A stretch of DNA of 64,000 nucleotides from Rickettsia canadensis str. McKiel (GTDB lineage Bacteria; Pseudomonadota; Alphaproteobacteria; Rickettsiales; Rickettsiaceae): positions 511,501 through 575,500 of the forward strand of contig NC_009879.1 in assembly GCF_000014345.1 (NCBI RefSeq). The letters are read 5' to 3'. The notes beneath the pieces are model-generated. The model did not search any database. It was not told where the DNA came from and was given only the letters and a program-made list of their open reading frames with translations. Position 1 is the first letter of the stretch; each line of letters starts with the position of its first letter. Below, piece after piece: positions 17,141 through 54,927 of this stretch. The translations under genes were made by a program, and so were the position numbers.

Positions 17141-17878
17141 CTAATTATTTTTAAAACCTAATAATTTTTGTTTTTCACTATTAATTATTTGTTCAACCTT
17201 ATCATTAAGTATACGTACATCTGTTTGCTCCACCTCTTCTTTTGCTATTACGCCAATAATTTTTACCTTTATAGTTCCAGGTTGCTTAAACCAAAAACCT
17301 CTAGGCCAAAATAAACCGGCATTATGAGCCATCATCACAATTGGAACTTTAGTAATTGAAGCAAGCTTTACAGCACTTGGCTTAAATTTTACTATTCTAT
17401 CAGGCGGGACTTTGGTTGATTCTGGAAATATTATTAACCATAATCCTTCTTTTATTTTTTCCTGACCTTCTCTTAAAATCTGAGCAACCGAGCTATTAGT
17501 ACCTCGATCCACCGCAATCGGTTTTACCATACGAAGCCCCCAACCAAGCAAGGGTATATTAAATAATTCACGCTTTAATACCCAAGAATGTTTAGGAATA
17601 ATCAACTGCATAAACATTTGATCCCAAAAGGATTGGTGATTAGATACAACTATTGAGATTGTTGTCGGTAATTTCTCCAGCCCCTCTACTTCATATTTAA
17701 GACCGCAACAAATTTTTGCAAGCCACACAAAAGCATAAGAGAAGATAAGGGCAATTTTATATCTTATTTGATAGTTGACATTGAAATATGTTACTGGTAT
17801 GTAGCATATAAGAAAGACAATAAATGTAAATAACGATAATAATCCATAAAATGATAAAATTCTTAAACGCCAAAGCAT
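17141..17878 (-). CDS. plsC: 1-acyl-sn-glycerol-3-phosphate acyltransferase
   Basis: Converts lysophosphatidate to phosphatidate in phospholipid synthesis at the inner membrane. The 245 residues start with a hydrophobic anchor. The acyltransferase motif I NHX4D is seen as VVSNHQSFWDQMFM (about residues 78-91), followed by GWGLRMVKPIAVDRG and motif III FPESTKVPP (in place of the usual FPEGTR). The downstream PIVMMAHNAGLFWPRG also fits the family. It lies 30 bases beyond the host-attachment-family gene start, on the same strand. Confidence 0.9.
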   Translation of the reverse strand: MLWRLRILSFYGLLSLFTFIVFLICYIPVTYFNVNYQIRYKIALIFSYAFVWLAKICCGLKYEVEGLEKLPTTISIVVSNHQSFWDQMFMQLIIPKHSWVLKRELFNIPLLGWGLRMVKPIAVDRGTNSSVAQILREGQEKIKEGLWLIIFPESTKVPPDRIVKFKPSAVKLASITKVPIVMMAHNAGLFWPRGFWFKQPGTIKVKIIGVIAKEEVEQTDVRILNDKVEQIINSEKQKLLGFKNN

Positions 17879-17955
17879 AATTATTAAAATAATTATATTA
17901 ATTAAAATGGTACTTATAACATAATTTTACAATGAGTAAAATAAAAAGGCATTAA

Positions 17956-18948
17956 ATGAAAAAAACTGTTCTTTCCGGTGTGCAAGCAACCGGTTCTTTG
18001 CATCTTGGTAACTATTTAGGTTCAATTAGAAACTGGGTTAAAATGCAAGAAGAATATAATTGTTTTTTCTTCTTAGCAGATTTGCATTCTATCACAGTTG
18101 ATATTAAGCCGTCAGAACTTAATAATTCAATTATGGAGGTTATTGCACTCTATATAGCAGCAGGGTTAGAGGCCGATAAAGTAACAATTTTTGCACAAAG
18201 TATGGTAAAAGAGCATAGTGAGCTTGCTTGGCTACTAAGCTGCGTTACATCGCTTGGCTGGTTAAAGCGAATGATACAATTTAAAGATAAAGCAGGTAGC
18301 GATCAAGAAAAAGCTTGCCTTGGATTATTTTCCTATCCGGTACTTATGGCAGCGGATATTTTAATATATAAAGCTGATATAGTGCCTGTCGGTGAAGATC
18401 AAAAACAGCATCTAGAGTTAACAAGAGATATTGCAGGTATGATAAATAGGAAATTTAACAAAGAAATTCTAAAAGTACCTGAACCGCTAATTAATGGCTC
18501 AGGCACAAGGATCATGAGTTTGCGGGACGGGTTAAAGAAAATGAGTAAATCTGATATTTCGGATTTTTCGCGTATAAATTTGAAAGATGATAACGATCTT
18601 ATTCATCAAAAAATAAAAAAAGCTAAAACTGATCATTTAAGCTTTGTGAGCTATGATAAAGAGACAAGACCTGAAATTAGTAATTTATTAGATATTTATA
18701 GAAGTTTATCCAAAGAAAGTTTGGAAAAAATAATCGCTAATTATCAAAATCAAGGATTCGCAAAATTTAAAGAAGATTTAGCAGAAATTATTATTACAAA
18801 TCTACAACCGATACGTGATAAATATTTAGAATTAATGAATAATAAAGAGTATTTATTAAAAATACTTCACAAGGGAGCAGAAAAGGCAAGAATTAGAGCC
18901 TCTGAAACGGTAAATGAAGTGAAAGAACAATTTGGATTTATAATTTAA
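17956..18948 (+). CDS. trpS: Tryptophanyl-tRNA synthetase
   Basis: Class I synthetase of 330 residues. The HIGH-like signature is SGVQATGSLHLGNYLGSIRNW at the N-terminus, the KMSKS signature is LKKMSKSDISD (about residue 194), and GEDQKQHLELTRDIA is the usual tryptophan/ATP pocket segment. Length is normal. It is divergent from plsC with 77 bases between, and followed after 59 bases by tRNA-Ser(TGA). Confidence 0.97.
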   Translation: MKKTVLSGVQATGSLHLGNYLGSIRNWVKMQEEYNCFFFLADLHSITVDIKPSELNNSIMEVIALYIAAGLEADKVTIFAQSMVKEHSELAWLLSCVTSLGWLKRMIQFKDKAGSDQEKACLGLFSYPVLMAADILIYKADIVPVGEDQKQHLELTRDIAGMINRKFNKEILKVPEPLINGSGTRIMSLRDGLKKMSKSDISDFSRINLKDDNDLIHQKIKKAKTDHLSFVSYDKETRPEISNLLDIYRSLSKESLEKIIANYQNQGFAKFKEDLAEIIITNLQPIRDKYLELMNNKEYLLKILHKGAEKARIRASETVNEVKEQFGFII

Positions 18949-43725: not shown

Positions 43726-44382
43726 TTATTTTATTATTTGCATATAATGAGTTATTTCTTCTACGACTTCTATAGCTGAAAGCTTTGAAGTATCGATAAT
43801 TAAAGCATCTGAAGCTGGTAATAACGGTGCTACTTTTCGTTCTTTATCTCTTTTATCCCGCAAAATGATTTGCTGTAAAATCTCATCGAGTATACATGCT
43901 TTTCCTTTTGCTTGCAACTGCTTATATCGTCTTTCAGCCCTGATGTCCGGATTTGCAGTTATAAAAATTTTTAAATCGGCATCAGGTGCAACAACGGTTC
44001 CTATATCCCTACCCTCCATAATAATTCTTGGCGTTGTTTTTACTAGATTAATCAGATATTTGTTTAGATTATTTCTAACTTCACTTATTACGGCAATTTG
44101 CGATGCTATATCTCCTATATTCTCGTTCTCTAAATCAAGATTATTATCGAGTTTTAATCTTTTAGATAAAGCAATTACTGCATCGATATCAGTGATATCT
44201 ATTTTTTGACTAATACAGTCAAAAGTAAGCTGCCTATAAACAATACTTGATTGAAAATATTTAAGAGAAAATTTCTTTGCAAGCATTAAACCGATAGTCC
44301 CTTTACCTGAAGCAGCAGGACCATCAAGAGAAATAGTAAAATTTTGAGAAATATCAAAGGCTTTAGTTTTTAAATCCATCAT
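43726..44382 (-). CDS. cmk: Cytidylate kinase
   Basis: Phosphorylates CMP/dCMP. The 219 residues carry the P-loop [33 protein letters not shown] and [12 protein letters not shown], with [20 protein letters not shown] near the C-terminus. An in-frame ATG ten codons upstream gives [10 protein letters not shown], which is hydrophobic and does not match the family. The internal ATG-ATG, giving [11 protein letters not shown], is preferred as start. No strong ribosome binding site is visible for either. Confidence 0.93.
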
Positions 44383-44628
44383 AAAATTATAGGCTATCCA
44401 CACCAATGGCAAATTATATTTGTTAATTTGCTACCACATAAAAATTGTAAAAATTGTGGGTTGATACTAGTCTTTATCCCGATTTCAAAATAATATATTA
44501 ATATTCAATATTTTAATCGAATAGCGCATTATTGCATAATCCACTATTCACATAAATTCAATTCAATAATAAAATATTATAAGTAAAGCTTGAAATCTAG
44601 TACATTATGCAATAAATATAGAATTTAA

Positions 44629-44705
44629 GGGTGATTAGCTTAGTTGGTTAGAGCATTACGTTGACATCGTAAAGGTCAGAGGTTCAATCCCTCTATCGCC
44701 CACCA
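44629..44705 (+). tRNA. tRNA-Val (anticodon GAC)
   Basis: Seventy-seven bases with encoded CCA. The acceptor GGGTGAT pairs with ATCGCCC; the anticodon stem TTACG/CGTAA closes loop TTGACAT, giving GAC. Conjugative-element remnants begin on its 3' side, as expected if this tRNA served as an attachment site. Confidence 0.96.
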
Positions 44706-46876: not shown

Positions 46877-47470
46877 GTATAGTGTTTTACACATTATACT
46901 TGATTACTAATGATTTAAACTTAGAAGCTTCATGTTTCTACGAACTATACCAAGTTTTAGGAGTAAGATTCTTTCAAATTATCTATGTGAGTACTTTAGT
47001 AAAAAGTACATTGATAGTAGAATTTTAGTTGTTGCTAAACAAAATATCAAATTGGCTTAATTAATCCTTGAATTTACCTTTTAGATAATGGTAAAACAAA
47101 GATTGATAACAATGTTATGTTGCTGAACAAGCACAGTGGTAGGTATGAAGTACTAGCTTTTGTTTGGTGGGTCATACGGTGGTGGGAAAATCACAGATGA
47201 TATATATTATATATCGAAAGATATAGTATTACTTAGGAGTCTGTCTTGGCAGTAGATTGATAACAAAAATAATGCACTAATTCATAACATGAAGTTTAAA
47301 ATCTACATCCAAAAACAGTAATTTTTTCTAAAACTTATAAATTTTTAGACATTAAATACCTCAAAAGTGACATGTTTAAGTACTATCTAATTATTCAATT
47401 AGTCTTTTAAGACAGGTTCTTAGAAAATTTAGGTAAAAAGTATTAAAAATAATTAAGGTTGATAATTATT
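46877..47470. other. Gap before the SpoT-like gene
   Basis: Contains a short plus-strand stretch DLNLEASCFYELYQVLGVRF near 46910 and another, GGKTKIDNN, near 47095, but no gene can be traced. Presumably decayed mobile-element sequence; the last 60 bases must hold the promoter of the intact gene at 47471. Confidence 0.4.
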
Positions 47471-48178
47471 ATGAAAGATTTAAAAAATTGGCAAGATGAG
47501 TTTGAGGTATGTATTTATGCTAAGAAGCTACTGGATAAAGTAATATATTTAAATAGTATAGTAAAAGTACCACCAGTGGATGTGTTGGAGGTAAAGAAAG
47601 CTATATACTATGCAAGGAAATATCATGGCGGTCAAATGCGTCAATCAGGAGAGCTATTTTACTCACATCCGATAGAAGTAGCATATATGGTATCTGATTA
47701 CTTATTTAGAACAGATATATTAGTAACTAGTATATTGCATGATACTATAGAGGATACAGAACTTACCAAGGAGAAAATATTACAAGAATTTGGAAAGAAT
47801 ATAGCCAATCAAGTAATGGATTTAACGAGGATTAAGGAGAATGGTATAAAGATTAGTTCTGCTGAAATGGTAGAGATGTTATACAAAGAGAAGAAACATG
47901 ATGTACTTCTGATTAAGCTATTTGATAGACTGCATAACATACAGACAATAGGTGCTAAATCTCCTGAAAAAGCTAAGAAAATTGTAAATGAAACTTTAAT
48001 AAGTTTTATTGTTTTGATGCCTTACCTTGGAATTCCATCATTAGAAAAACACTTTTATCGATTATGTTTACATGCTACACATAAAAATAGATTAAAGGAA
48101 AATACATTATTTACTAATAATCTTAGAAAATTTTGGAGTTATTTTAAACACAACACTGAATCTATAAATATAATTTAG
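47471..48178 (+). CDS. Hydrolase-only SpoT/RelA-like HD protein
   Basis: A 235-residue HD-domain protein similar to the (p)ppGpp hydrolase half of SpoT. Residues seen: YARKYHGGQMRQSGELFYSH with PIEVAYMV, the metal-binding HD with ED in TSILHDTIEDTEL, and KLFDRLHNIQTI. No synthetase domain follows, so it should degrade alarmone only. The ATG (MKDLKNWQ) is preferred to an in-frame TTG four codons earlier. Fragmented spoT genes are typical cargo of rickettsial conjugative elements, but this one is intact over its domain. Confidence 0.82.
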   Translation: MKDLKNWQDEFEVCIYAKKLLDKVIYLNSIVKVPPVDVLEVKKAIYYARKYHGGQMRQSGELFYSHPIEVAYMVSDYLFRTDILVTSILHDTIEDTELTKEKILQEFGKNIANQVMDLTRIKENGIKISSAEMVEMLYKEKKHDVLLIKLFDRLHNIQTIGAKSPEKAKKIVNETLISFIVLMPYLGIPSLEKHFYRLCLHATHKNRLKENTLFTNNLRKFWSYFKHNTESINII

Positions 48179-48206: not shown

Positions 48207-49298
48207 TTATTTTGGTAGCAATTGAAATACTTTATGCTTTAGGTTAATTCTATTAAACGTATATATTACATGAATTTCATTGTTATCAGGACTCATAATA
48301 ATAGCAGGATATGAATATTCTTCAGACAGGATGTTACTATATTCTATATCCCCTTCAGGATAGATAGAATTTCTAATAGTGATAGGGCGCCAATTCAACC
48401 CCTCATCATAGGATGTAGCTACACTTAATATATTTCGTGATTTATGATTATTGATTACTCGATTATATGCAAGTAGCAATACGTCACTACTTAAATTAAT
48501 AGTATCAATAGCACTATCAGGATTTAATAAATTTACTGGTTCTAAATTACTCCAATATATTCCTTTATTTATAGATATTGATCTGTGTATGTAAGTAGAA
48601 ATTAAGGAATCAGTTTTTCTAGGTCTTACTAACATTATGATTTTATTTGGTAAATTACTACTAACTAAAGTTGGTTGTATAAAACCTCTGTAACCTTTTT
48701 GAAAAATTTGAGGGTTGAATGGTAATATAGGATTACTTAAATTCCATGTATGTAAATCTGATGAATATTCTATATATGAAAAGTCATCAATACAACTTTC
48801 TCGAGAACATGGAGATAAAATATTATTTTCATAAATTAGTGGTTTATTACGTGCTGGTCCTAGAATACCATGTAATAGTTCTGGTTTTTGCCATGTTAAT
48901 CCTCGATCATAAGAACGAGATAGTATTCCACTCCATGTTCTTGGATAAGGTCCGATTTTACTAAAAATTAGCAACTGATTATTAAAGAAAGTTATTACTG
49001 GATTTCCACAACTGATTATCCCATTATCTTGTTTAAGAGGAATATGATGATCACGAAAATATTGCGGTGAAATAATTCTTTCTGGAGTAGTCCATTGATA
49101 ATGATTTTTCTTTTTAAATCCTAAACTAATCCAAATACTGTTATTTTCTTCTGACTTACCTGATTCAGATTGTGTTTTACCAAAAAATGATATTATTAAT
49201 TTTTGATCGTCAAAAGCAAATATGGTTGCAGCATGAACATCTTTTAGATCTGAATTATTTAAAATAAATTCTTCTATTTTTGTTTCTAAAATAAACAT
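48207..49298 (-). CDS. BNR/Asp-box sialidase-family protein
   Basis: A 363-residue beta-propeller enzyme of the sialidase superfamily (BNR type). The N-terminal VHAATIFAFDDQKLIISFFG and ENNSIWISLG, then the arginine-containing GPARNKPLIYENNILSPCSR, match the conserved blades. Asp-boxes are SYDRGLTW (about 129-136), SINKGIYW and SYDEGLNW. No signal peptide is visible, so it would act in the cytosol unless exported otherwise. It starts six bases after the MFS gene stop, so the two form an operon. Activity on sialic acid is inferred; other glycosidase or lyase roles exist in this superfamily. Confidence 0.82.
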   Translation of the reverse strand: MFILETKIEEFILNNSDLKDVHAATIFAFDDQKLIISFFGKTQSESGKSEENNSIWISLGFKKKNHYQWTTPERIISPQYFRDHHIPLKQDNGIISCGNPVITFFNNQLLIFSKIGPYPRTWSGILSRSYDRGLTWQKPELLHGILGPARNKPLIYENNILSPCSRESCIDDFSYIEYSSDLHTWNLSNPILPFNPQIFQKGYRGFIQPTLVSSNLPNKIIMLVRPRKTDSLISTYIHRSISINKGIYWSNLEPVNLLNPDSAIDTINLSSDVLLLAYNRVINNHKSRNILSVATSYDEGLNWRPITIRNSIYPEGDIEYSNILSEEYSYPAIIMSPDNNEIHVIYTFNRINLKHKVFQLLPK

Positions 49299-49304
49299 GA
49301 TGTT

Positions 49305-50615
49305 TTATTTTTTTTCTAAATTATTGAAATAATTTAATCCAAGTGTAAATCCTATTATTATTGGGAATAGTATAATTTGCATTCCCCAATGGCTAAAATA
49401 TTTTGTTAAATATACAAGACCAAAAGATATAATAATATTCATGGAAACAGTCGATAAAGCAAAAATTATACTTGCTGTTCTAAAGCGTTTAAAAACTGGA
49501 AAATGTTTTAGAAAAATTGGCATAGCTGGATTTGCACTAAGAAAAAATAACATTACAAATGATTGAATTAAGAATAAATGAACAGAAGTAGTAATATTAT
49601 TTAGTAAATAAGGACAAATGAGAGCAAAAATAAAAAATATTACTAATTTAATCTTAAGAATTCTTAATGGGTATATAATATAACTTAAATAAGTTAATAT
49701 TAAATAAGCACAAAAATTTACTATTGCTACAATAAAATTGTTATGAATAACTGCTTCTGCTGTAAAATTAAAAGAATTTTTTAAAATTTCACCACAATAA
49801 ATATAAGTAAAATAAAAACATATTGGCCAACCACATGATATTAATAATAAAAAGAAGAATGTTTTTAGATTGACCCTTTCATTGTAAATAAGATTATCTT
49901 TTAATGGATTATCTGTAGTTTTTTGTATTAAAGTGATATTTTTCTTAACACGACGTTTTGCATCAGCAAATTCAGGAGTTTCCCGTAAAGCAGTTCTGGC
50001 AACTGCTCCAACAATTGCTATTATAGTTCCAAGCCAAAACGCTATACGCCAATTAAATCCAAATGAGGTGACTAAAGATGCAACAGCTAAGGCTATCATT
50101 CCTCCTAAATTAGCAAATACTGATGTCATTAAAACAATAGGATATTGTATAGGAGGTTTTGTTATTTCTAGTAAGTATAGTTGTGCTCCAACTATTTCAC
50201 CCATAGAAGATAGACCTTGAATAATACGGCATGTTATAACTATCACAGTAGCAATGAGTCCTTTTTCAGCATAAGTTGGGACAAGGGCCATTGCAAGACA
50301 CGAAGACGACATTAAGAATGTAGTAATAATTACAGTTGCTTTACGACCAATTATGTCACCAACTAAGCCAAAAATTATGGCTCCAACAGGCCTCATCACA
50401 TAAGTAGAACAAAATGCAAAAGCAGAGTAAATAGCTTGAGTATGCGGGTCTGCCTTAGGAAAAAATAATTCATTCAGTAAAACTGTCATATGAACATATA
50501 GCATCAGATCAAAATATTCTAAAAATGTTCCAATTGATAATAATCCTACAGCTTTTTTTTGTTCTGTTGTTAATGAAGTAAATGTTCCTTCATTATGTTT
50601 AGTATATTCTATCAT
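49305..50615 (-). CDS. MFS transporter, metabolite:H+ symporter (ProP-like)
   Basis: A 436-residue inner-membrane transporter with twelve predicted helices. Signatures of the metabolite:H+ symporter group are GTFLEYFDLMLYVHMTVLLN, YVMRPVGAIIFGLVGDIIGRK, RIIQGLSSMGEIVGAQLYLL and ARTALRETPEFADAKRR. Rickettsia have many ProP-type paralogs with undefined substrates. It is the first gene of a two-gene unit with the sialidase-like protein, so transport of a sugar or sugar acid is an attractive, unproven idea. Confidence 0.85.
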   Translation of the reverse strand: MIEYTKHNEGTFTSLTTEQKKAVGLLSIGTFLEYFDLMLYVHMTVLLNELFFPKADPHTQAIYSAFAFCSTYVMRPVGAIIFGLVGDIIGRKATVIITTFLMSSSCLAMALVPTYAEKGLIATVIVITCRIIQGLSSMGEIVGAQLYLLEITKPPIQYPIVLMTSVFANLGGMIALAVASLVTSFGFNWRIAFWLGTIIAIVGAVARTALRETPEFADAKRRVKKNITLIQKTTDNPLKDNLIYNERVNLKTFFFLLLISCGWPICFYFTYIYCGEILKNSFNFTAEAVIHNNFIVAIVNFCAYLILTYLSYIIYPLRILKIKLVIFFIFALICPYLLNNITTSVHLFLIQSFVMLFFLSANPAMPIFLKHFPVFKRFRTASIIFALSTVSMNIIISFGLVYLTKYFSHWGMQIILFPIIIGFTLGLNYFNNLEKK

Positions 50616-50713: not shown

Positions 50714-50935
50714 TTATCTTAATTCGTGATTATCAAAAATATTTTTGCCGATTTGAGTCCATTGATCTTGTATACTTGGGTTTTCAGTCAATTCACTTTG
50801 CAGAGAAACCAAAGCTCCAAGTAAGCTACTAGTTGGTAAACAGTCAAGTTTTACTTTTACAACTAAACCTCCCATTTCAATCAAATGACGAGTACGAGTT
50901 TTCCTTTCCTGAATTTTAAGTTTAGCCTCTTCCAT
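50714..50935 (-). CDS. traD: TraD of Ti-type conjugation systems (small)
   Basis: A 73-residue protein. The core RKTRTRHLIEMGGLVVKVKL matches the small TraD family found beside traA in Ti-type and RAGE transfer regions (RK.dtR.kI.lGgLv.KA.L), followed by LLGALVSLQSEL. It lies divergent to the traA remnant at 51.4 kb, the usual layout. It is open and normal in length although its partner is broken. Not the same protein as the F-type coupling ATPase also called TraD. Confidence 0.75.
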   Translation of the reverse strand: MEEAKLKIQERKTRTRHLIEMGGLVVKVKLDCLPTSSLLGALVSLQSELTENPSIQDQWTQIGKNIFDNHELR

Positions 50936-51425: not shown

Positions 51426-53700
51426 ATGGTGATACAGTTTGCAAGAATAGAAATAGTAAGTAGGAGTTCAGGAGGAAATGCTTGTCTGAAAGCTTCTTAT
51501 AATGTAAGGATAGTTATAAAAGATAAGAGGAGCAATTCTACTTACAACTTTAGGAAGAAAGGAGATATACCATACAGTATTGTTGCCTGCTCATGTAGAT
51601 CAAAAATTCAAAGCCCAAAGGGTTTTGATGAATAAAGTAGAACGTCTAGAGACAAGAAAAAATAGTCAATTATTAAAAGATGTAGTTTATAGCACTACCT
51701 GATGATAAAATTGGATTTAGATGATAGAATAGCAATTACTCATGAAATCATTGAAGAGATGGGGTGGGTAAAGAATGGACTTGGAGTTCAAATTGATATT
51801 CACCAGCTACATGATGGAGAAAAGAATTGGCATGCCCATGTGCTTGTTACTACCAGAAGATTCACAAAAGATGTAAGGCAGTAGATTTAAATCCTAAATT
51901 TGCCAAAGTTAAGGGCAAAGCGTTCATTATCCCAGAAGATCAGATAATTCATGAGAGAGCTCAAGAAGTAAATATTTTGTTAAGTTAGGCTTAGAAATTC
52001 GAATAGACCTGATAAGTTTTATGCCTCAGCAGCATGTCGGTCCTACTAGAATAAGAAGTATTATCAATGCAATATCTGAGCAAAATAAAATATGCAGGCT
52101 TGCCCATCTTGAAATCATCAAAGGAACAGATGGGGTACTTGATTGCATTATTCATCATCAAGCTATTTTTACTAAATTGGATATAGAAAAAGCAGTCAAA
52201 GAGATGCTAGCAGAAGCAGAAAAGTCAAAACTAATAAGGGAGGTATTAAATTCTGATAGATTAATCAAACTATAATAATGAAGATGGCACGAATACTAAA
52301 TACTATATTACTAAAGGTGTGCAAGCAGAAGAGTTAAGGATACTTAGAATAGCAGCTAAGATCAATAGCTAGATTCATTTTAATAAAGTGCTATCGATAA
52401 TCTTGCAAGTGTTAATGAAACACAAAGAGAAAGTCTAACATCATATTTTAATTAATAATCAAGGGATTAGGATCTTACGAGGTAGAGCCGGCACTGGTAA
52501 GTCACAAGTACTTGCTGAGACTTTTATAAAGTTGTCACTAATCATGGACGAAATATTATAGGACTCTCGCTCCTACTCATAAAGCAGCATCAGATCTTAA
52601 AAGTAAAGGCTACCAGCAATGTCATACAGTAAAAGGGTTTTTATTTAAATTGTATAATGGCAAAGCTGAGCTACCAAGAAATACTACGCTAGTAGTAGAT
52701 GAAGCAGGGATGGTAGGTAATAGTGATTATTTAGAATTATTGAAAGTAGCAAGGAGTAACAATTGTAATGTGATACTGGCTGGAGGTGAGAGATAACTCA
52801 CTTCAGTTGAGCGAAGAGGAATATTTGCAGTATTTGCAAGTAGGTTTGGCTCAAGTAACATTAGAAGACAAAGCAAGGTATGAGCAAAAGAAATGGCTTC
52901 ATGCTTTGCAAAATCAGATATTATTGGGTGGTCTGTAGTTACTAGAACAGCATAACGGTTTAAAGATTGGTCATACGCTAGAAGAATCAATGGCAAGATT
53001 AATTAATGATTGAAGTAACAGCAAATTTGCTCTAAATGAGCGTTTAATAATTACCATGCATAATATTGAAGTAGATAGTATTAATCAAGGAATCAGGAAG
53101 TTACTAAAAGCTAAAGCCTTACTCACTGGTCAAGAATATAGACGCTATGTATCGCCTAAGAAGTATGAAGATTATATGGCAGGAGATCGTATTTTGTTTA
53201 ATATAACTAATAAAGATTTACAAATAGAAAATGGCGAATTTGCAACGATAACTTCAGTAAGTAATGATAAGTTTGTTGCTAAAAGATAGCGGAAAAGAAA
53301 TAGAATTTATCTTCAAGATGTAAGCTTTAAACATGGCTATGCTTCTACAGTGTATAAAGGCACAAGGAGCCTCAATTAAAGATGTCTATGTATTAACATA
53401 ATCTAGGAGGAAATAGCAGCAATTCCTATGTTGCAATGACTAGACACATATAGAAGAGGTAAAACTCTGCTATAGTAGGGAGGTTACCAGGAGGAATATA
53501 GCAAGTTTAATATCGCAACTTAGCAAAATAGATAGTAGGCTATCTAGCATTAATTTTAAAACTTTAGAAGAATTAGTAGCGATTCAAGATCAAGAAAATA
53601 CGAGTCCTAATATTATAAATAAAGTAGATAATTGGTTTAAAGGGGTAATAGAAGATATTCAGGATAGATTATATCAATGATAACTATTACCGTTTAAGAG
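51426..53700 (+). pseudogene. traA: Ti-type TraA relaxase-helicase, heavily broken
   Basis: Successive frames give the full domain order. First is the MobA/MobL relaxase N-terminus (MVIQFARIEIVSRSSGGNAC, KASYN, FRKKGDIPYS) with the HxH-type metal motif in KNWHAHVLVTTRRF. Then comes a RecD-like helicase: Walker A in RILRGRAGTGKSQVLAETF near 52485, APTHKAASDLKSKGYQQCH, Walker B in TTLVVDEAGMVG. Motifs near the end are YMAGDRILFNITNKDLQIEN, KHGYASTVYK and SYVAMTR. At least eight frameshifts or stops interrupt it. The nicking Tyr region is not resolved. This is the relaxase of a RAGE-type element. Confidence 0.85.
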
Positions 53701-53904: not shown

Positions 53905-54927
53905 ATAGATTATCATGCTATTAACAAACAAGAGACAGTAGAATTAAAGCAAAAATTATCATTTAAGGCTGCAGAAATAGGTATAAACTTACTAGGCAGT
54001 CCAAATAAGCATTTATCAAATAGCCAGTTACTCCGCTGGGAGAAAGATAGTAAAATAGCAATGAAGATCAACGGTAATAAAGCTGGCATCTGGCATGATT
54101 TTAGTACAGGAAATGGAGGAGATTTATTTACCTTAGTACAAAGAGAAACAAATTGTGATTTTGTAGAAGCTAAGAAATATTTACAAGATATGGTTGGTAT
54201 ATCATCAACCAACAAAAGTAAAGATATAGCAGTAAATTTAGCAGCAAATAAAAATCAACAAATTAAAACCCCAGCAGCGCAAGGTGATAAAATAGTAAAA
54301 ATTAAGAGAGCAGAAATATTATATGAAAAATCAGATGCTTTAAAATATGTCATGCCAAGTCATGTAGCAAAAAGATATTTATCAGAACATTGTGAAATTA
54401 AAGAAGTATTGACAAGATACCAACTAAGCTTTGATCTTAGCACCAATATGATGTGGGACAGTCATAGCAAACAATATTATCCTGTCTTAATTGCTTTTGC
54501 TAGAAATAAAGATGGTAATATTACTGCTGGACAATCAATTTATTTAAACAAAGACACAAATAATAAAGCTGATATTGATGTTAATAAACGTTCATTTGGT
54601 AGAATCAGAGGTTCTTTTGTCGAGATTAATAAAAATAACGAACAGCAGAACGTACAAATCAGTAAAGATGGTAGCAATTCAACAAATAATGTAACGATTA
54701 TAGCCGAAGGGTTAGAGACGGCTTTAAGCATTGTGGAAGCTGGTATTAAAGGCAAAATTCTTTGTAGTTTAGGTGTAAGTAACATCAGGAACTATAAACC
54801 TCTCAAAGGTGAGAGAATAATAATTGCTGCCGATAATGATGCTAAAGAAGCAGTATCAGTTTATACCATAATTAAGGCTCAGGACGAATTAATTAGCAAA
54901 GGAGCAGCGGTAGCAATAATATATTAG
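53905..54927 (+). pseudogene. Toprim-domain (primase-like) protein, copy 1, truncated
   Basis: Open for 340 codons but without the proper start and cut at the 3' end. The N-terminal part TVELKQKLSFKAAEIGINLL and GIWHDFSTGNGGDLFTLVQ resembles the DNA-binding region of plasmid primase-like proteins. The C-terminal part has the toprim core: TIIAEGLETALSIVEAG with Glu and ERIIIAADNDAKEAVSVY with the DxD. The first ATG is at 54061. Compared with copy 2 (58.7-59.4 kb) it lacks the tail PPNKGDFNDVL and ends where an inverted traD_F fragment begins. It may still yield a folded toprim protein. Confidence 0.7.

Follow-up and report, generated by a model that had tools for sequence, protein, structure and literature searches.

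A sialidase-fold enzyme and a linked transporter in element remains of Rickettsia canadensis: a possible cassette for import and processing of an acidic sugar other than sialic acid

What do a sialidase-like enzyme and a transporter do in a Rickettsia? The question is raised by a 64,000-nucleotide stretch of the genome of Rickettsia canadensis str. McKiel (NC_009879.1, positions 511,501–575,500; the window), in which a BNR gene and an MFS gene lie among the remains of a conjugative element. The original prediction was that the pair could process and import a host sugar or sialic acid. Comparison of the two genes with their relatives reveals that the pair is real and mobile and that the enzyme gene is constrained. 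As read from its sequence, the enzyme is a member of the BNR_2 family and, by its active site, not of GH33. Because this site is changed, the enzyme probably acts on an acidic sugar other than sialic acid, and the pair most likely imports and cuts such a compound.

The source genome, a single contig of 1,159,772 bases, holds one BNR match. Both open reading frames (ORFs) are undamaged and six bases apart, as originally described, and the domain matches agree. The BNR protein matches Pfam BNR_2 (PF13088) with E 3.7e-39 and 135.2 bits, above the gathering cut-off of 31.4, and has no NCBIfam match at E 0.1. The transporter matches MFS_1 (63.7 bits; cut-off, 33.4) and Sugar_tr (66.3 bits; cut-off, 22.3), and its best NCBIfam model is that of the metabolite/H+ symporters, TIGR00883, at 165.5 bits, under the curated cut-off of 443.45. 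The observation that the enzyme has no visible signal peptide was also upheld: the open frame, at 365 codons, extends only two codons beyond the 363 of the protein, which excludes a signal peptide hidden upstream. Neither a signal nor a membrane anchor is found, as judged from the frame and not from a signal-peptide predictor. Scans of the DNA gave 26 promoter-like sites, against 30.5 expected, and no terminators, and are thus uninformative.

The structure match assigns the BNR protein to the six-bladed sialidase fold with human cytosolic Neu2 as the top match, a result that comes from re-inspection of Foldseek's ranking and not from a free search. Identity to GH33 sialidases over the structural match is about 15–17%; a single-sequence search for close solved relatives gave nothing meaningful, and profile searches find GH33 sialidases. 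Asp-boxes (S-x-D-x-G-x-T-W) are present at residues 129–136 and 296–303, with a degenerate one at 242–249, the three sequences being SYDRGLTW (exact), SYDEGLNW (near) and SINKGIYW (degenerate). The aligned active-site positions are His22, Gln208, Arg225, Arg288 and Tyr330. The protein thus resembles GH33 enzymes, such as Neu2 and the Micromonospora viridifaciens sialidase, in its Asp-box propeller, two of the three triad arginines and the nucleophilic tyrosine, but it differs in having His22 in place of the first arginine and Gln208 in place of the catalytic glutamate that activates the tyrosine. The sialidase residues that had been proposed as a check are therefore present in part: Arg225, Arg288 and Tyr330 fit the pattern, and the full triad and the Tyr/Glu pair are absent. 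The family profile was matched by 6423 of 7996 scored candidates, and active-site columns were examined in 230 rows. The His and Gln swaps recur in nearly all aligned relatives; Tyr330, the two arginines and other pocket-type residues are invariant (230/230). The acid/base Asp loop was placed differently in three alignments, and a glutamate lies near the turn in 218 of the 230 rows by pattern.

The match to Neu2, the conservation of Tyr330, Arg225, Arg288 and the Asp-boxes, and the adjoining transporter gene would all suit a true cytosolic sialidase with a sialate importer, by which Rickettsia would use host sialic acid. Against this stand the two swaps, here and in nearly all aligned relatives, the absence of NanE (PF04131) from the source genome, in which the DHDPS-family model PF00701 finds one gene, dapA, and the score of the transporter against the sialate:H+ symporter model TIGR00891, 62.9 bits, far under the cut-off of 552.9. 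We consider a true sialidase very improbable, and the predicted processing and import of sialic acid is not borne out; use of this sugar was rejected on the active-site residues and the missing pathway genes.

We propose instead that the two genes are an import-and-process cargo of a Rickettsiales Amplified Genetic Element (RAGE). The MFS symporter would take up a small acidic compound present in the host cytosol, and inside the bacterium the cytosolic sialidase-fold enzyme would cut it. The two conserved arginines would hold a carboxylate, and the His/Gln/Tyr site, unlike that of sialidases, would break a bond of an acidic sugar that is not an ordinary sialoside bond. The enzyme would be a hydrolase acting on a 2-keto-3-deoxy acid, for instance 3-deoxy-D-manno-octulosonic acid (Kdo) or a related compound, or else a lyase that splits a uronate by beta-elimination. 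The two genes, the fold, the residue swaps, the linkage, the recent transfer and the constraint are observed; the direction of uptake, the chemistry and the substrate are predicted. We place about even confidence in this reading, a RAGE-borne import-and-process cassette for a non-sialoside acidic sugar.

The lyase option has a parallel in the PL25 ulvan lyases, which share the sialidase-superfamily propeller and, according to an excerpt of PMC13193363, use His, Tyr and Arg for beta-elimination, showing that such sites in this superfamily can eliminate. They differ in having seven blades and in belonging to Pfam BNR_4 (PF15892), for which the BNR protein has no match at E 0.1 in the Pfam scan. 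Residues of these kinds are invariant in the BNR family rows. PL25 and other lyases are absent among the 50 structural matches listed, which excludes nothing.

A different reading starts from KdoH1, which is related to sialidases. In Helicobacter pylori, KdoH1 and KdoH2 together remove Kdo from lipid A (PMC3245313, in excerpt), and one R. canadensis gene belongs to the Kdo transferase family (PF04413, 176.9 bits). The enzyme might accordingly trim an envelope sugar of the bacterium itself in the manner of the KdoH1/KdoH2 hydrolase; the membrane partner would then assist the enzyme and import no food. The BNR protein lacks a signal or membrane anchor, however, its partner is an ordinary MFS member of a large Rickettsia family, and 14 of the 23 sampled Rickettsia genomes are without a BNR match, so that envelope trimming seems quite improbable.

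Outside the Rickettsiaceae, BNR_2 proteins of Bacteroidota and Proteobacteria annotated as 'exo-alpha-sialidase' or 'predicted neuraminidase' share the Pfam family and the His/Gln/Arg/Arg/Tyr pattern; the Bacteroidota members belong to glycan loci and, by eye, seem to be exported, whereas the Rickettsia form is cytosolic and element-borne. Seventeen plasmid records contain a match, and eight were opened, one of them without annotation, giving seven contexts. Four resemble loci for pectin or other plant glycans (Rufibacter, Croceibacterium, Bacteroides finegoldii and Monoglobus), and two, in Martelella and Klebsiella, combine a DHDPS-family gene with a transporter. In B. finegoldii, the BNR domain is fused to a GH78 glycosidase beside a GH140 gene. 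Since the side chains of rhamnogalacturonan II bear Kdo capped by rhamnose, as well as 3-deoxy-D-lyxo-heptulosaric acid (Dha) (PMC12282258, in excerpt), it is a natural guess, and not a result, that this fusion would act on rhamnose and then Kdo. A plant GH33 protein may act on Kdo or Dha, which an excerpt of PMC6852159 offers as a suggestion only.

The Klebsiella operon (Table 1) resembles the R. canadensis locus in that its BNR gene adjoins an MFS gene close to the metabolite/H+ symporter family, scoring 443.4 bits against TIGR00883, a hair below the cut-off. It differs in the order, BNR then MFS, in the additional FGGY kinase, DHDPS-family and LacI regulator genes, and in the MFS sequence, which is 25% identical to that of Rickettsia. 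A DNA-level search for Escherichia coli relatives of the Klebsiella gene gave no match; some match to BNR_2 does occur in the E. coli control genome. The nearest matches that are not Rickettsiales-like are about 34% identical to the R. canadensis protein, with one exception at 48%. The latter (P0009), on a 51-kb contig, has 391 residues and the same insertions as the Rickettsia proteins, and its start resembles the end of a signal peptide by eye. No characterised member of the free-living family was found in the literature search, and nothing on point on Rickettsia with a sialidase, neuraminidase or BNR protein appeared among the matches listed.

More broadly, we suggest, tentatively and with some doubt, that the His/Gln/Arg/Arg/Tyr 'sialidases' may be a separate kind of enzyme whose substrates are acidic sugars of plants or bacteria (Kdo-like or uronate), carried with a dedicated importer through the Rickettsiaceae by a conjugative element. 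If so, obligate intracellular bacteria would gain a portable sugar-acid import trait. The locus itself shows a catabolic-looking enzyme that has moved with its own importer, on a conjugative element, between distant Rickettsia, whose metabolism tends to be described in terms of loss alone. The active-site columns, examined in 230 rows, also give specific grounds for doubting 'exo-alpha-sialidase' annotations in their thousands, and an easy way to check them by residue.

Across the order, evenly sampled, a BNR match occurs in 11 of 261 genomes, all from two genera; within the genus Rickettsia the count is nine of 23. The named relatives are all Rickettsia: R. tamurae, R. peacockii and the endosymbionts of Oxypoda opaca and Labidopullus appendiculatus. 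The BNR frame is open and full length in nine of the 11 genomes (G000, G006, G008, G017, G019, G020, G021, G099 and G148), and the pair is intact in seven. In the other four, the MFS gene is broken beside an intact BNR gene (G021), split around another ORF beside an intact BNR gene (G148), or partial beside a split BNR gene (G004), or only the BNR tail remains, with no MFS gene at the locus (G005). G006 has, in addition, a broken second copy. Frequent inactivation in close relatives, by which the original prediction proposed to judge itself, is thus encountered in part.

In the genus search, intact MFS proteins linked to BNR are 96–98% identical, whereas identity to MFS relatives that lie elsewhere does not exceed 63% (about 60% full length). 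A 30-row tree was built from the genus-search loci that passed the length filter, G099 and the Klebsiella outgroup; in it, the seven BNR-linked transporters form one clade with support of 100/100. Two genera share the order of BNR, MFS and SpoT-type hydrolase genes at about 70% identity, and the G099 pair is only 78% (MFS) and 70% (BNR) identical to that of R. canadensis, so that the linkage is old. Together with the second, independent pairing on the Klebsiella plasmid, the clade and the kept adjacency argue that the association of transporter and enzyme is a lasting one. The cassette was also recently transferred between distant Rickettsia: between G019 and G017 or G020, the synonymous divergence (dS) is 0–0.0045 for BNR and 0.0103 for MFS but 1.37–1.38 for S1. 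The R. canadensis cassette and that of G008, by comparison, are as diverged as S1 (BNR, 0.181; MFS, 0.162; S1, 0.181).

Such recent spread could in itself be the main reason why the frames are open, if the pair were a selfish or neutral RAGE cargo that drifts in the chromosome of each host. The damage in four of 11 genomes fits this explanation, as do the broken copy in G006 and a remnant in R. peacockii in which the two genes are fused. The remnant (P0008) is a 434-residue protein, annotated as an MFS transporter, that joins MFS and BNR parts. Neutral drift is countered by the conserved gene order across two genera and by the pattern of substitution. Pairwise ratios of nonsynonymous to synonymous divergence (dN/dS) for BNR are 0.15–0.19 against the R. 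canadensis sequence and 0.23–0.33 for most other pairs; pairs that are nearly identical give values that are higher or undefined. On the R. canadensis branch, polarised with G099 and G148 for BNR and with G099 only for MFS, there are seven synonymous and four nonsynonymous changes in BNR and four of each in MFS, giving binomial P values of 0.002, 0.08 and, for both together, 0.0006. The selection originally suggested for the pair is therefore supported for the enzyme gene, whereas MFS alone falls short of significance, and we regard neutral carriage as rather unlikely.

Several observations weigh against an import-and-process cassette. The MFS changes taken alone are not significant, and part of the branch may predate the decay of the element. 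The intact BNR genes beside broken MFS genes in G021 and G148 imply that the enzyme may be able to do without this transporter. Apart from dapA, no catabolic partner for a sugar acid is visible in the genome, the Pandoraea plasmid (one of the seven contexts) fits neither of the patterns described above, and the 230 rows behind the residue counts were all picked as relatives.

The surroundings of the pair are consistent with RAGE cargo (Table 1). The pair is linked to Tra genes and a SpoT-type gene near a tRNA and cmk, the type of site at which RAGE insertion is reported (PMC9111745, in excerpt), with rpsA, cmk and tRNA-Val(gac) all to the left of the cassette. It differs from the cargo described for the Rickettsiaceae in that a text search of three RAGE papers found no sialidase-fold enzyme named as cargo: the words sialidase and BNR are absent from PMC6300072 and PMC10732058, and neuraminidase is absent from PMC9111745. 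An intact element was not found around the cassette, the TraA relaxase being in pieces, with short ORFs at 51426, 51702 (a MobA_MobL piece), 52021 and 53056 (a weak RecD-like SH3 piece). Neighbouring conjugation genes had been described as wrecked; this is true of the relaxase, but TraD matches the whole Pfam domain, so not every conjugation gene is.

TraD is adjacent in seven of nine genus loci, and the SpoT-type hydrolase gene adjoins BNR in all 11 genomes with a match. This adjacency, with the loss of the glutamate that activates the tyrosine, might indicate that the propeller binds sugar without catalysis and serves to sense or carry the imported compound, perhaps in connection with the hydrolase. 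We consider this improbable, given that the tyrosine, two arginines and other pocket-type residues are invariant, that SpoT genes are common RAGE cargo (PMC10732058, in excerpt) and that the B. finegoldii relative is fused to a glycosidase.

Table 1. Features of the R. canadensis window and of the Klebsiella operon
Feature	Position	Strand	Remarks
cmk	43726..44412		
tRNA-Val(gac)	44629..44705	+	beside cmk
RelA/SpoT-type HD hydrolase domain protein	47459..48178	+	239 aa, converges on BNR gene
BNR_2 enzyme gene	48207..49298	-	363 aa, sialidase fold, open frame
MFS transporter gene	49305..50615	-	436 aa, open frame
TraD (Ti-type)	50714..50935	-	73 aa, whole Pfam TraD, directly upstream of MFS gene
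TraA relaxase/helicase remains	51426..53289	+	several short ORFs
Toprim/DUF7146 primase-like element gene	54061..54927	+	288 aa
Klebsiella plasmid pRHBSTW-00867_2 operon	L077:3771-11672		FGGY kinase, unnamed protein, DHDPS-family gene, BNR, MFS, LacI regulator; insertion sequence genes flanking

The small SpoT-type hydrolase gene, which faces the BNR gene tail to tail across 28 bases, may be part of the cassette or ordinary RAGE cargo. In G148, the ORF between the two MFS parts (L084:5652-8162) encodes 364 residues; a further ORF whose start is the same is present at 17300-18394 of this locus, a recurrence that would suit a mobile element.
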